In this document: in pieces, positions 4,971 through 17,074 of the stretch | Layout: each line of letters begins with the position of its first letter | How positions within the stretch are numbered: the stretch's first letter is position 1 | NCBI GenBank assembly: GCA_018402735.1 | Contig: JAGYIF010000004.1 | Coordinates: 1-37,668, forward strand | Reading direction: 5' to 3' | Length of the DNA stretch: 37,668 bases | Source: Pelagibacteraceae bacterium | GTDB taxonomy: Bacteria; Pseudomonadota; Alphaproteobacteria; Pelagibacterales; Pelagibacteraceae | The notes under the pieces: generated by a model | Database searches by the model: none | The model's input: the letters and a program-made list of their open reading frames with translations, nothing else | What the model was told of the DNA's origin: nothing | Program-made: the position numbers and the translations under genes

Positions 4971-6383
4971 ATGCTATCAGGAAATGTAACTGCCTCTTTA
5001 TATTTAGTATCAGGCATATTTTTTATTTTAGCCCTTCGAGGTTTATCATCTCCTGAAACTTCAAGAACAGGTAATTTATTTGGTATTATCGGTATGGCGC
5101 TTGCAATAGTGGTCACCCTTCTATCTGTTAAAGATCTTACAATTTTAATTAATAATTCTTTTTATATTTTAGTGCCACTTGTCATAGGAGGTTTTATTGG
5201 CGCTATGATTGCTGCACGAATTGCCATGACTTCCATGCCGCAATTAGTTGCAGGGTTTCATAGTCTTGTCGGTTTAAGCGCAGTTTTAATTGCAGTTTCG
5301 GCATTTTATAATCCAGATTCTTTTGGTATTGGAACTTTTGGTAATATTAAATTTGCATCCCTTATTGAAATGTCCATTGGGGTTTCGATTGGTGCCATAA
5401 CTTTTTCAGGCTCTTGTATTGCATTTTTAAAATTACAAGGACTAATGTCAGGATCACCAATTACTTTTAAAGGTCAGCATTTTATTAATTTATTAATTGG
5501 AATTACTATTATTGTTTTGATTGGATATTTAACAATCAATCAATCAGAAAATATATTTTGGACTTTAACCATACTCTCCATTGTTGTTGGTTTTTTAATT
5601 ATCATTCCAATAGGCGGCGCTGATATGCCGGTCGTTGTTTCCATGTTAAATTCTTATTCAGGCTGGGCAGCAGCTGGAATTGGATTTACTTTAGAAAACA
5701 CAGCTTTGATTATTACCGGTGCATTAGTAGGCTCATCTGGTGCAATTTTATCCTACATAATGTGCAAAGGTATGAATAGATCGTTATTCAATGTTATTTT
5801 AGGAGGATTTGGATCAGAAGGTGATACCGCAAGTGCATCTAAAAATAATCCAAACAAACCAGTTAAACAAGCAGGAGCAGAAGATGCAGCATTTTTAATG
5901 AAGAACGCGTCATCTGTTATTATTGTTCCAGGATACGGTATGGCAGTGGCGCAAGCGCAGCATGCTTTAAAAGAGATGGTTGATAAATTAAAAGCAAATG
6001 GTGTTAAAGTTTCTTACGCTATACATCCTGTTGCAGGACGAATGCCAGGTCACATGAATGTTTTATTGGCAGAAGCAAATGTTCCTTATGATGATGTATT
6101 TGAGTTAGAAAATATTAATAATGATTTTTCTAATACGGATGTAAGTTTTGTTATTGGTGCAAATGATGTGACTAATCCTGCAGCCAAAACTGATAAAACT
6201 AGTCCTATTTATGGCATGCCAATTCTTGATGTTGAGAAATCAAAATCGGTACTATTTGTTAAACGAAGTTTATCTTCTGGTTATGCCGGCGTAGATAATG
6301 AATTATTTTATAAAGATAATACGTTGATGTTATTTGCTGATGCCAAAAAAATGGTTGAAGAAATTTCTAAATCTTTAGATTAA
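4971..6383 (+). CDS. pntB: NAD(P) transhydrogenase, beta subunit
   Basis: A 470-residue protein with roughly nine membrane helices (residues 1-270) followed by the NADP(H)-binding domain III. Domain III shows [11 protein letters not shown] near residue 320, [20 protein letters not shown] near 346-365 and [10 protein letters not shown] near 395-404, all hallmark motifs of the family. It completes the proton channel and binds NADP(H). It is the last protein gene of the pnt operon. tRNA-Val begins only 11 bases after its stop, so the tRNA may be released from the same transcript. Confidence 0.96.
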
Positions 6384-6394
6384 ATATTAAACTA

Positions 6395-6469
6395 GGGACT
6401 GTAGCTCAATAGTAGAGTACTGCATTGACATTGCAGGGGTAGTTGGAGCGTAACCAACCAGTCCCACCA
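6395..6469 (+). tRNA. tRNA-Val (anticodon GAC) with aberrant D and T loops
   Basis: The cloverleaf is complete: acceptor GGGACTG/CAGTCCC with encoded CCA, D stem GCTC/GAGT, anticodon stem CTGCA/TGCAG around loop TTGACAT (anticodon 6427-6429, GAC) and T stem GTTGG/CCAAC. The D loop is AATAGTA, so canonical G18 is A. The T loop (6447-6453) is AGCGTAA in place of the near-invariant TTCRANN. The 54-58 pair becomes A-U in place of T-A, and 18-55 becomes A/G in place of G-pseudouridine, while G19-C56 is kept. Stems are intact, so it does not look decayed. It could be functional with a remodelled elbow, or an unusual pseudo-tRNA. Confidence 0.85.
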
Positions 6470-6488
6470 ATTCATTATTAAAAAAGTT

Positions 6489-6565
<77 letters not shown>

Positions 6566-6596
6566 ATATGAATTTATTATTAAATAGTAAAAAAAA

Positions 6597-6791
6597 TTAA
6601 AATCTAGCCTTAAGTTTTCTTAACTTCTTAACTCGTGCCATATTATCTTCTAATTCTCTCTTTTTTCGTTCAGAGGGCTTTTCGTATGTACTTTTAATTT
6701 TTAATAAACGAAACGTTCCTTCACGCTGAAGCTTCTTTTTAAGAACTCTTAACGCTTGTTCCAGATTGTCGTTTTTTACTTCTATTTTAAT
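6597..6791 (-). CDS. rpsU: 30S ribosomal protein S21, apparent AUU start
   Basis: A 64-codon frame encodes S21: after the start, KIEVKNDN then EQALRVLKKKLQREG and YEKPSERKKRE, aligning without gap to alphaproteobacterial S21. There is no ATG, GTG or TTG at the N-terminus. The family-aligned start codon is ATT (6789-6791). The frame is closed by TAG two codons upstream, leaving only GTT and ATT before the conserved N-terminal region. A full GGAGGT Shine-Dalgarno sits five bases before ATT. S21 joins the small subunit near the anti-Shine-Dalgarno and assists initiation. mrdA is divergent, and initiator tRNA lies 31 bases downstream in the same direction. The C-terminus is basic. Confidence 0.9.
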   Translation of the reverse strand: MKIEVKNDNLEQALRVLKKKLQREGTFRLLKIKSTYEKPSERKKRELEDNMARVKKLRKLKARF

Positions 6792-6796
6792 AACCT

Positions 6797-6802
6797 ACCT
6801 CC
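6797..6802 (-). promoter_or_regulatory. Strong Shine-Dalgarno site of rpsU
   Basis: GGAGGT on the minus strand is a six-base perfect match to the anti-Shine-Dalgarno, 5 bases before the ATT codon. Many genes in this window have weak or no such site, so this one helps decide that translation begins at the non-standard codon. Confidence 0.75.
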
Positions 6803-6825
6803 AAATAAGCGGCTGAATTAACATT

Positions 6826-6853
6826 TTGCAAAAAAAAAGTCCACCGTTATATT
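6826..6853 (+). promoter_or_regulatory. Candidate promoter of mrdA
   Basis: TTGCAA (6826-6831) and TATATT (6848-6853) are spaced by 16 bases. Transcription would begin around 6860, leaving only about 3 bases before the mrdA ATG at 6863, that is an almost leaderless message. TTGCAA is its own reverse complement. Sequence match only. Confidence 0.4.
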
Positions 6854-6862
6854 GGTTATTTA

Positions 6863-8698
6863 ATGAAATATTTCACGCCATCACCCAAAAAAGGATCAGA
6901 AAGCAAGAGCAAACTCATCTCAAGAAGAGCATTTGTTTTAACTTCTTTTAAGTTTGTGTTTCTTGCAACGATTATTTCCAGATTATTTTATATGCAGGTT
7001 GTAAAGAAAGATGAATACACTATTCGTTCTGATAAAAATAGATTTCGCAGCTGGAAATTAACTCCTTCGCGCGGTGTGATCTTAGATAAACATGATCATG
7101 TGATTGCTGATAATTTTCAAGTGTATAAAATTGCTCTCATTCCAAAAGAAATTAAATCAATTAATAATTTTTTTTCATCTCTTTCAGAATTAATACCACT
7201 GAACCAGGATGAAATTGATTTGTATAAAAAAAAACTAGTTAAATTTAATAAATACCAACCATTTGTTTTAAATAAAAATTTAAACTGGAAAGAATTTTCT
7301 AAATTAAATTATAATATTCAAAATCTACAAGGCGCCCAACCTTTTATTTCATATGAGCGAACTTATAAGTACCCCTTTGAATTCTCACATATTATTGGTT
7401 ACGTCAGTGCCCCAGATAAAAATGATCTGAATAGATTAGATTCTAATTTTAGAGAAGTGCCAAATTTGAAAATAGGAAAATTTGGTTTAGAAAAAAATTT
7501 AGATGATCAATTATTAGGCAGTCCAGGTTCAGCAACGTATGAAGTAAATGTGTTTGGCAAAAGAATTAAGCAAGTTGTGCATGAAGAAGGTGTAAATGGT
7601 AATCCGATAAAAATCACCATAGATAAAGATATTCAAACTTTTGCCCACCATAGGTTAAAAAATAATCCAGGTTCGATTGTTGTTATGGATATGCAAGGTA
7701 AAGTATTATGCTGCGCATCGAGCCCCTCTTTTGATTCAAATAAATTTACCTACGGCATGAGTGAAGATGAATTTAAAGCATTAAATAAAGATGAACAAAA
7801 ACCTTTAATCAATAAAGCTTTAACTACTGCATATCCACCAGCATCCACAATAAAAATGCTAGTGGCTCTTTCTGCGTTAGAAAATAAAATTATTACCAAA
7901 GATTTTAAGCACACGTGTAAGGGCGATGTAGAATTATATGATCATAAATATCATTGCTGGAAAGAAAAAGGGCATGGCAGAATAGGTTTGCATGAAGCAA
8001 TTAAACAATCGTGCGATATTTATTTTTATGAAGTGGCAAGACTTCTTGGTATTAACCGTTTGCAAGAAACGGCAATGAAATTTGGTTTAGGCGAAAAAGT
8101 GTTTCAAAATTTTATTGAAGAAAAAGAAGGTTTAATTCCTTCTACAACTTGGAAAAGAAAAGTATTAGGAAAACCTTGGTTTTTAGGAGAAACTATGATC
8201 GCTGGAATTGGTCAGGGTTATATGAAATCAACTAATGTGCAGTTGTGCAAAATGATGGCGCAGTTTGCTAATGGTGGTTACAAAATTTCTCCATCCTTTA
8301 TAGAAAATGAACAAACTGTATTAACCGAAAAAATTGTTAATGATGATGAATATGTTGGGTTATTATTAAAAAGCTTAGATGCTGCAACTAATGAACCAGG
8401 AGGAACTTCCTATGCATCAAGAATTATTGGAGCTAGGCAGTTTGCTGGTAAAACCGGAACAGCCCAGGTGCGACGAATATCTCAATTAGAAAGAGATCAG
8501 GATATAAAAAATAAAGATCTGCCTTTAAAATATAGAGACCATTCTTTATTTGTTGGTTTTGGCCCAACCGACAAACCAAAATACGCTATCACTGTCATAA
8601 TTGATCATGGTGGATCTGGATCTGCAGTGGCAGCACCAATTGCTAGAGATGTTATGAAAAACATTTTTGAAAAAGATGCAAAAGTAAATAATGTTTAG
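6863..8698 (+). CDS. mrdA: Peptidoglycan transpeptidase, penicillin-binding protein 2
   Basis: A 611-residue class B penicillin-binding protein that crosslinks lateral-wall peptidoglycan in the periplasm as partner of RodA. One membrane anchor lies at about 27-45. The dimerisation/pedestal region contains RGVILDKHD (70-78). The transpeptidase domain carries the three active-site motifs: S328-T-I-K331, S383-C-D385 and K530-T-G532. SCD, not SxN, is normal for PBP2. Length is as expected (about 600-630). Its last 8 bases overlap mrdB. It is divergent from rpsU. Confidence 0.96.
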   Translation: MKYFTPSPKKGSESKSKLISRRAFVLTSFKFVFLATIISRLFYMQVVKKDEYTIRSDKNRFRSWKLTPSRGVILDKHDHVIADNFQVYKIALIPKEIKSINNFFSSLSELIPLNQDEIDLYKKKLVKFNKYQPFVLNKNLNWKEFSKLNYNIQNLQGAQPFISYERTYKYPFEFSHIIGYVSAPDKNDLNRLDSNFREVPNLKIGKFGLEKNLDDQLLGSPGSATYEVNVFGKRIKQVVHEEGVNGNPIKITIDKDIQTFAHHRLKNNPGSIVVMDMQGKVLCCASSPSFDSNKFTYGMSEDEFKALNKDEQKPLINKALTTAYPPASTIKMLVALSALENKIITKDFKHTCKGDVELYDHKYHCWKEKGHGRIGLHEAIKQSCDIYFYEVARLLGINRLQETAMKFGLGEKVFQNFIEEKEGLIPSTTWKRKVLGKPWFLGETMIAGIGQGYMKSTNVQLCKMMAQFANGGYKISPSFIENEQTVLTEKIVNDDEYVGLLLKSLDAATNEPGGTSYASRIIGARQFAGKTGTAQVRRISQLERDQDIKNKDLPLKYRDHSLFVGFGPTDKPKYAITVIIDHGGSGSAVAAPIARDVMKNIFEKDAKVNNV

Positions 8699-15704: not shown

Positions 15705-16769
15705 ATGAAAGAATATAAAATTGCATCCATAGCAGGCGATGGCATAGGAAAAGAAGTGGTGCCAGAGGGAATAAAAATATTAAAAAAAGTAGCTGAACAA
15801 TATCAGTTCAAAATTCATTTTGATGAATTTGATTTTGCTTCTTGTGATTATTATGCAAAGCATGGAACAATGCTTCCAGATAATTGGAAAAATCAAATTG
15901 GAAAGCACGATGCTATATTTTTTGGCGCTGTGGGAATGCCAGATCAATTGCCAGACCATATTTCTTTATGGGGCTCTTTATTAAAATTTAGAAGAGAATT
16001 TGATCAATATATAAATTTACGACCTGTAAAATTAATGCCTGGAGTTCCTTGTCCATTAGCTAATAAAAAACCTGGAGATATAGACATGCTTATTGTTCGG
16101 GAAAATACCGAGGGAGAATACTCTTCAGTTGGCGGCAGAATGTATGCTGGCACAGATAGAGAAATTGCAATTCAGGAAACAATCATGTCCAGACAAGGTA
16201 TTGACCGAGTTATGAAATATGCATTTGAATTGGCAAAAACTACAAAAAGAAAAAAAGTTACAAGCGCAACTAAATCAAACGGAATTTCAATTACAATGCC
16301 TTTTTGGGATGAAAGATTTAAAGAAATGAAAAAAAAATATCCAGAAATTACAACAGATGAATTTCATATAGATATTTTGGCTGCTAGATTTGTGTTAACT
16401 CCAGAATGGTTTGATGTTGTAGTTGCTTCTAATCTATTTGGAGACATACTTTCTGATCTAGGACCAGCATGCACTGGCACCATAGGAATTGCAGCGTCTG
16501 CAAATATAAATCCAGAAAAAAAATTTCCTTCTTTATTTGAACCGGTTCATGGCTCTGCACCAGATATTGCAGGAAAAGGAATTGCTAATCCAATCGGTCA
16601 AATCTGGTCTGGTGCAATGATGCTAGACTATCTTGGAGAAAAAGAAGCGGCAGATAATATTATCAAAGCAATTGAAAAAACATTATCTAACGAAGATACA
16701 CGAACTAAAGATTTAAAAGGTAATAGCAACACAAAACAGTGTGCTGACGCGGTCTTGGCAAATTTATAA
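15705..16769 (+). CDS. dmlA: D-malate dehydrogenase (decarboxylating) / tartrate dehydrogenase family
   Basis: A 354-residue beta-decarboxylating dehydrogenase. It follows DmlA/TtuC, not LeuB or Icd, through most of its length: GDGIGKEV (11-18), DHISLWGSLLKFRREFDQY (about 84-102), NLRPVKLMPGVPCPL, RENTEGEYSS, SATKSNG and NLFGDILSDLGPACTGTIG. These enzymes oxidise D-malate or tartrate to pyruvate/oxaloacetate-level products with NAD+ and divalent metal. The LeuB substrate-specific segment is replaced. The cognate regulator is not nearby. It ends 5 bases before ssrA, which is on the other strand. Confidence 0.88.
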   Translation: MKEYKIASIAGDGIGKEVVPEGIKILKKVAEQYQFKIHFDEFDFASCDYYAKHGTMLPDNWKNQIGKHDAIFFGAVGMPDQLPDHISLWGSLLKFRREFDQYINLRPVKLMPGVPCPLANKKPGDIDMLIVRENTEGEYSSVGGRMYAGTDREIAIQETIMSRQGIDRVMKYAFELAKTTKRKKVTSATKSNGISITMPFWDERFKEMKKKYPEITTDEFHIDILAARFVLTPEWFDVVVASNLFGDILSDLGPACTGTIGIAASANINPEKKFPSLFEPVHGSAPDIAGKGIANPIGQIWSGAMMLDYLGEKEAADNIIKAIEKTLSNEDTRTKDLKGNSNTKQCADAVLANL

Positions 16770-16774
16770 AATGA

Positions 16775-17040
16775 GAAGTGGGGCGTTCTGTTGCAAGGTG
16801 CCCCTGACCCCTGCTATTTAATTAACCGAAGTTAATTAAGCAGCAATAGCATAACTTTCGTTAGCATTTAAAATGTAGCCCGTCACAGCGGAACAATACT
16901 GAACGAAAGAAAAGCCTTTAGACATCTGTCGAGCCTATTTCACCCCCGTGAGTTGTACAATGGTGGAGGTGCAGGGTACCGCCCCCTGGTCCAAAATGTT
17001 TATTACGAATTTCGTTTATCGTTATAGTTGGAAAACCAAC
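16775..17040 (-). ncRNA. ssrA: Transfer-messenger RNA, circularly permuted two-piece form
   Basis: Read on the minus strand, the acceptor piece comes first (17040 to 16961): a GTTGG/CCAAC hairpin, T arm CAGGG-GGCGGTA-CCCTG (16972-16988) and 3' strand CACCTCC with A-CCA. After about 13 bases the coding piece begins at 16947 with GGGGGTG, which pairs with CACCTCC. The tag frame (16865-16836) is GCT AAC GAA AGT TAT GCT ATT GCT GCT TAA, giving ANESYAIAA. Its stop lies in a TTAATTAAC-TTCG-GTTAATTAA hairpin. A GGGGC/GCCCC stem closes the 3' end. The outer ends are estimates. Together with SmpB it rescues stalled ribosomes. Confidence 0.93.
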
Positions 17041-17046
17041 ATCAAT

Positions 17047-17074
17047 AATATAAAACTTTCAGAGACTGATTCAA
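17047..17074 (-). promoter_or_regulatory. Promoter of ssrA
   Basis: On the minus strand TTGAAT (17074-17069) and TATATT (17052-17047) are 16 bases apart. The predicted start is about 17040, exactly the first base of the GTTGG hairpin of the acceptor piece. It sits between ssrA and the divergent thyX start at 17088. Confidence 0.55.

Follow-up and report, generated by a model that had tools for sequence, protein, structure and literature searches.

The gene for ribosomal protein bS21, rpsU, very probably begins at AUU in a SAR11 bacterium of the Pelagibacteraceae and in its relatives. The window, by which we mean the whole 37,668-nucleotide stretch of DNA analysed, carries this gene behind a strong Shine-Dalgarno (SD) sequence and just ahead of an initiator tRNA gene. 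AUH start codons are regarded as very rare, with infC as the best-known case. In the Pelagibacterales one is conserved at the head of a ribosomal protein gene in every sequence read from the two sampled families. We argue, with modest confidence and from comparison of sequences, that AUU would act as a brake on bS21 synthesis in a unit built around rpsU and the initiator tRNA, and that this brake is probably sensitive to IF3.

The features of the locus are collected in Table 1. All of them lie on the minus strand, and the sequence-only reading from which this work started gave no strand. The product is bS21, scoring 51.5 bits against TIGR00030 (cut-off 28.95) and 51.2 bits against PF01165 (cut-off 27). 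Among the matches listed, from which the window's own records were perhaps left out, the closest named relative is Pelagibacteraceae bacterium isolate CP.15, with 95% identity in bS21. The sequence-only reading held that the frame lacks a canonical N-terminal start and is closed by TAG two codons upstream, that GGAGGT stands five bases ahead of ATT, and that alignment makes ATT the first residue. Each of these points holds. No ATG, GTG or TTG occurs in the window between the upstream TAG and the conserved N-terminus of bS21. A single GTT codon (6794-6792) stands between TAG and ATT, the ATT matches Met1 of other alphaproteobacterial bS21, and the frame ends in TAA (6599-6597). In the window's genus rpsU therefore has a start of the infC type, that is, one other than ATG, GTG or TTG and with no canonical alternative in frame. 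Gene finders restricted to those three codons are expected to miss this start or to misplace it.

Table 1. Coordinates of the rpsU locus in the window
Feature	Position	Strand	Remarks
Predicted -35 element TGGACT	6838..6843	minus	motif TRGAC-N14..18-TGNTA
Predicted extended -10 element TGTTAATTC	6815..6823	minus	same motif
Shine-Dalgarno GGAGGT of rpsU	6797..6802	minus	5-nt spacer AGGTT, then ATT
In-frame TAG closing the rpsU frame	6795..6797	minus	shares one base with the Shine-Dalgarno
ATT start codon of rpsU	6789..6791	minus	would initiate with fMet on the AUU-start reading
rpsU (bS21)	6597..6791	minus	64 codons and stop, read from ATT
Initiator tRNA-fMet	6489..6565	minus	C1-A72 mismatch; anticodon stem with A29-U41

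The codon is conserved across the family. We gathered 115 family loci (5 from the first matches, 30 of 118 matching genomes and the best 80 of at least 438 relatives), which reduce to 109 distinct rpsU sequences. They were lined up on a pattern that demands AT as the opening bases and AA in codon 2. This pattern allows ATG and matched all 115 loci. The start is ATT in 108 of the distinct sequences and ATC in the remaining one, and none of the 109 has ATG, GTG or TTG at this position. The second family of the order was sampled by its 30 best matches plus 10 more loci. These 40 loci (32 distinct upstreams) show ATA at the apparent start in 39 cases and ATC in one. The sequence-only reading had proposed that relatives with ATG at this position would mark a sequence error in the window. 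We looked for such an ATG, and it is absent from the 109 family sequences and from the 40 loci of the second family. ATT is one base away from ATG, and still ATG is never present in the family sequences read. Comparison confirms that the observation on the start codon is more than chance, and AUG has probably been selected against at this start. The independence probability for the conservation of ATT (P = 3e-19) ignores relatedness and is not literal.

A sequence or assembly error has practically no chance of being the explanation, since the same codon recurs in independent metagenome-assembled, single-cell and single-contig genomes. The window's genus has six genomes, counting its own, and an rpsU match is present in four. 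All four carry an identical TAG-GTT-ATT, and one of them is a single-contig genome. Three other family genomes, each at least 94% complete, have no S21 match, through either an assembly gap or real loss. One further genome (G113, contig 1, 103914-104070) shows S21 split into two partial matches that overlap, one of them containing a TAA, which is perhaps an assembly frameshift.

The rest of the gene gives a scale for this conservation. It is 64 codons long in 115/115 family loci. Isoleucine is encoded at codon 29 by ATT in 36, ATA in 15 and ATC in 4, and at codon 30 by ATA in 45, ATT in 27 and ATC in 6. Strong conservation is also seen at codon 3 (ATA 100, ATC 5 and ATT 3 of 108), so the ATT start is not the sole conserved isoleucine codon. 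ATT makes up 65% of the isoleucine codons in the 38 window ORFs taken as genes. The bases on either side of the start are invariant in 109/109 family sequences, position -1 being U and position +4 being A. These could extend the pairing with the anticodon loop of the initiator. Such extended pairing of start-codon flanks is an idea that Esposito is said to have put forward in 2003.

It is worth considering whether translation starts elsewhere. Many marine SAR11 sequences have an in-frame TTG that overlaps the rpsU SD (TTGGAGGTAGTTATT), and about 30 nt upstream in the window there is an in-frame ATG, which is followed by the TAG. One could imagine initiation at the TTG, or at the ATG with readthrough, or some form of frameshifting. 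We find all of these very improbable. The TTG is missing from the window's genus, from genus g2 and from others, and where it is present it would lie only a few bases from the predicted end of the RNA. The ATG is separated from rpsU by the TAG in the window and sits inside the predicted extended -10 element. Across the family, the residues that would be encoded ahead of ATT show no conservation at the protein level. The codon before ATT can be GTT, TTT, CTT, ATT, AAT or TAT. The sites that close the upstream frame are many and differ in place, and in several lineages they lie within or beside the SD. An upstream ORF or stop readthrough was also tried and rejected, since ATG...TAG is kept in the genus but not in other genera, and again its ATG falls in the predicted -10 element. 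Three second-family loci have an in-frame upstream ATG too, within or just past the promoter motif. Initiation at AUU itself is the reading that we carry forward.

A set of 80 other alphaproteobacteria was drawn from 227 matching genomes, mostly by best score and with divergent lineages outside the sample. Their rpsU starts with GTG in 45, TTG in 14 and ATG in 12, and shows ATC or ATA at this position in 9. The last nine come from 6 families and comprise eight ATC and one ATA. In five, the stretch read (up to 14 codons) contains no canonical codon, and the other four have a GTG a few codons upstream, inside an SD-like stretch. In the second family ATA or ATC is followed by GTT, GTC or GTA. It is conceivable that one of these codons is the start instead of ATA or ATC, both there and in the nine other alphaproteobacteria. 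Outside the Alphaproteobacteria, the best-scoring loci have ATG in 23 of 24 and TTG in one. For the control gene rpsO, which gave 56 matches, 30 alphaproteobacterial loci were read and all have ATG.

One could also argue that the lineage tolerates AUU-like starts broadly and that rpsU is nothing special. Its initiator tRNA might help, since A29-U41 replaces one of the three initiator G-C pairs in 66 of 115 class genomes (the GGG/CCC form is found in 0/115 and neither pattern in 49), and this might relax selection. A genome-wide control makes broad tolerance as improbable as we judged a start elsewhere to be. We compared 400 kb of the window genome with 400 kb of the single-contig genome of its genus, about 30% of each. 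This yielded 306 conserved ORF pairs, which were ranked by how clearly they lack a canonical codon near the start, and we read the top 45. The only gene among them that has none is infC; there it reads AGAGGTATCCTT-ATT-AAT. The remaining high-ranked pairs have an ATG or GTG further in, run into upstream or tRNA sequence, or look antisense, and the 7 antisense-looking ORFs checked all lie under longer frames on the opposite strand. This control is blind to AUH genes in which a canonical codon follows within a few residues. Among the 38 window ORFs that we took as genes, ATG is the start of 34, GTG of 2 and TTG of 2. Since infC, which starts with ATT, is the only other conserved gene found with a non-canonical start in the compared portion, the link between rpsU and IF3 that the sequence-only reading suggested is strengthened.

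This link is not a simple one. We considered AUU to be universal in SAR11 infC and dropped the idea. The 30 Pelagibacteraceae infC loci start with GTG directly after TAA in 20 cases and with ATT in 6, all of the latter from the Fonsibacter-like genus g6, and 4 have an ATG. Sequence comparison suggests that the lineages with GTG seem to have lost an AUH-type infC start. Rather more than half of the infC loci thus have GTG while rpsU of the family keeps AUU or AUC, so the two codons are not always linked. For alphaproteobacterial infC our reading gives ATA (24) or ATC (6) where the start is expected, in 30/30 loci. No canonical codon lies within 20 codons of the GPRxN motif in 19 of them. The other 11 have ATA or ATC behind a GGAG- or GGA-type stretch, and in 5 of these there is a canonical codon upstream.

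The SD of rpsU is predicted to be among the strongest of those scored in this genome. With an assumed anti-SD its predicted pairing is -10.7 kcal/mol, which ranks third of 271 starts scored. Only 2 of the 270 other sampled starts match or beat it, and GGAGG occurs in 3 of the 270. These comparison starts (ATG 224, TTG 35, GTG 11) were chosen by script for 270 of 305 ORF pairs and some are probably wrong. The 16S 3' end that carries the anti-SD was not found by exact pattern in the window genome, nor in the further stretches examined. The strongest SD of the 270, at -14.1 kcal/mol, belongs to a minus-strand ORF of locus L303 (10642-11416) and reads TTATTGGAGGTGGTTAATTC-ATG.

A promoter is predicted close upstream. 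The motif TRGAC-N14..18-TGNTA, which was chosen after viewing the sequences, is found in 107/107 distinct family rpsU upstreams, where 2-mer block shuffles average 0.3. With a slightly looser -35 it is found in 32/32 distinct upstreams of the second family. A generic sigma-70 score of the rpsU upstreams is not above that of shuffles (mean 8.60 vs 8.55), so the predicted promoter rests on this post hoc motif. The motif would place the start of the RNA near 6808, for a leader of roughly 15-17 nt. We tried and rejected a structured leader, because about 15 nt is too short and the leader region of the window folds no better than shuffles (z +1.17). Rfam gave four matches in 6300-7000, and only two tRNAs were above the gathering score.

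The initiator tRNA is the usual downstream neighbour of rpsU in this family. In the window tRNA-fMet begins 31 nt past the rpsU stop, and it is the only copy matching the initiator pattern in the window genome, which is 96.8% complete. It lies downstream of rpsU on the same strand in 99/115 family loci, with a gap of 0-12 nt from the stop in 75 of them. The linked copies have A29-U41 in 99/99 and C1-A72 in the 98 that are full length. We rejected A29-U41 as a SAR11-specific feature, as it is widespread in the Alphaproteobacteria in the counts given above. No tRNA-Met follows rpsU in 14/115 family loci that have at least 767 nt of room (11 from genus g6, 2 from g8 and 1 from g10), and two further loci are too short to judge. 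Nor is there one beside rpsU in 30 second-family loci or in 30 class loci scanned. The tRNA-less loci of the family and the loci of the second family keep AUH, so linkage to the tRNA is not the sole reason for the codon. Elsewhere in the window ARAGORN places a tmRNA at 16745-17055, where it shares 25 bases with the end of the convergent ORF 15705-16769.

We argue that these features are best read together. A promoter, a leader of about 15 nt, the AUU-initiated rpsU and the initiator tRNA gene would form one compact unit, with rpsU as its leading cistron. In the window bacterium and its relatives bS21 would be initiated at AUU by fMet-tRNA, which the strong SD in a very short leader would place on that codon. 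The supply of initiator tRNA would demand strong transcription of the whole unit. If the unit is strongly transcribed for the tRNA, AUU would therefore serve as a brake on bS21. A weak codon against which IF3 discriminates would hold the output of bS21 low. This is the simplest form of our reading, and sensing of IF3 or of subunits that lack bS21 would be a further step. Whether AUU is accepted would be set by IF3 and by the state of the 30S platform, so the brake would most likely also sense the ratio of IF3 to 30S. bS21 synthesis would then respond to that ratio or, in a homeostatic loop, to subunits lacking bS21. Excerpts of PMC4611024 state that IF3 discriminates against AUU, AUC and AUA, and that AUG, GUG and UUG escape. 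The same excerpts note that bS21 would clash with the SD helix seen in ribosomes lacking it, unless bS21 moves. By analogy with infC and sigR, sensitivity of the rpsU AUU to IF3 is a somewhat better than even prospect. Feedback of bS21 on its own synthesis through AUU is possible but doubtful.

The main competitor accepts AUU as the true start and holds that it merely fixes a low rate of translation, with no sensing of IF3 or the 30S subunit. This is plausible enough to be taken seriously, and we consider it rather unlikely. Since rpsU stands ahead of the initiator tRNA in most family loci, high transcription and weak translation would suffice. Alphaproteobacterial rpsU also generally avoids ATG, and 59 of the 80 genomes from the rest of the class use GTG or TTG, which lie outside IF3 discrimination and so count against an IF3 reading. 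However, a fixed low rate could be had from GTG or TTG with a weaker SD. What is found instead is a strong SD paired with a codon that IF3 discriminates against. ATT, ATC and ATA interchange, and ATG never appears among the distinct family sequences or the second-family loci. This argues against a brake that is simply slow.

If the brake does respond to the state of IF3 and the 30S subunit, it would be a compact circuit in streamlined cells, joining the fidelity of initiation, the completeness of ribosomes and the supply of initiator tRNA. One can take this further and imagine that bS21 across the order is made only when initiation makes a "mistake" at AUU, AUA or AUC. Its level would then read out initiation fidelity, meaning IF3 per 30S or the 30S subunits lacking bS21. 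The tRNA circuit would belong to most of one family, and other alphaproteobacterial lineages would have converged on the same device. We offer this extension as speculative and regard it as unlikely. Viruses bear on the same subject. Among 54 viral contigs related to a pelagiphage copy of S21, the nearest start is ATG in 50 and TTG in 4. The copy in the Mosig EXVC030M phage has AAGGAGGT and TTG. A phage bS21 started in this way would bypass the brake at the rpsU start codon.

In the literature searched, which we judged by titles and abstract openings and which left subscription papers mostly outside, we found no report of an AUU start in SAR11 rpsU. There are three known systems to set beside it. 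The first is infC, which is autoregulated through AUU or AUC. The likeness is an AUH start together with an SD-like sequence, and infC of the window genome has ATT as well. The differences are that rpsU encodes bS21 and not IF3, so any control by IF3 would be in trans, and that infC has GTG in most of the family loci read although rpsU keeps AUU or AUC.

The second is sigR of Streptomyces, which starts with GTC and extends IF3 control beyond infC, as described in excerpts of PMC5472188. From infC and sigR together, those excerpts indicate, a start codon of this sort can place a gene under the influence of IF3. Like rpsU, sigR is a gene other than infC whose non-canonical start is conserved and is preceded by an extended SD. 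Unlike rpsU, which is known from comparison, its control was shown with infC mutants according to the same excerpts. Moreover, rpsU is a ribosomal protein gene and its codon is AUU, not GTC. Annotation had misplaced the sigR start to a canonical codon (PMC5472188, in the excerpts used), and by analogy annotation has likely done the same to rpsU.

The third is rpsU of Flavobacterium, which excerpts of PMC9976891 describe as autoregulated through a strong SD that is read best by ribosomes lacking bS21. It is the same gene, and in SAR11 too its predicted SD may stand out, since few of the genes sampled carry such a sequence. The Flavobacterium mechanism, again going by those excerpts, depends on an extended SD with pairing below -13 kcal/mol, together with sequestration of the anti-SD by bS21 until bS21 is missing. 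Our value of -10.7 kcal/mol was obtained with an assumed anti-SD whose length differs from that in the excerpted paper, which qualifies any comparison with this threshold. The SD of SAR11 rpsU is ordinary in length, and its oddity is the start codon. What appears to be new, as far as sequence comparison can carry it, is a start of the infC and sigR type in a ribosomal protein gene, present in each of the two families sampled from the order and in most cases linked to the initiator tRNA in the Pelagibacteraceae.
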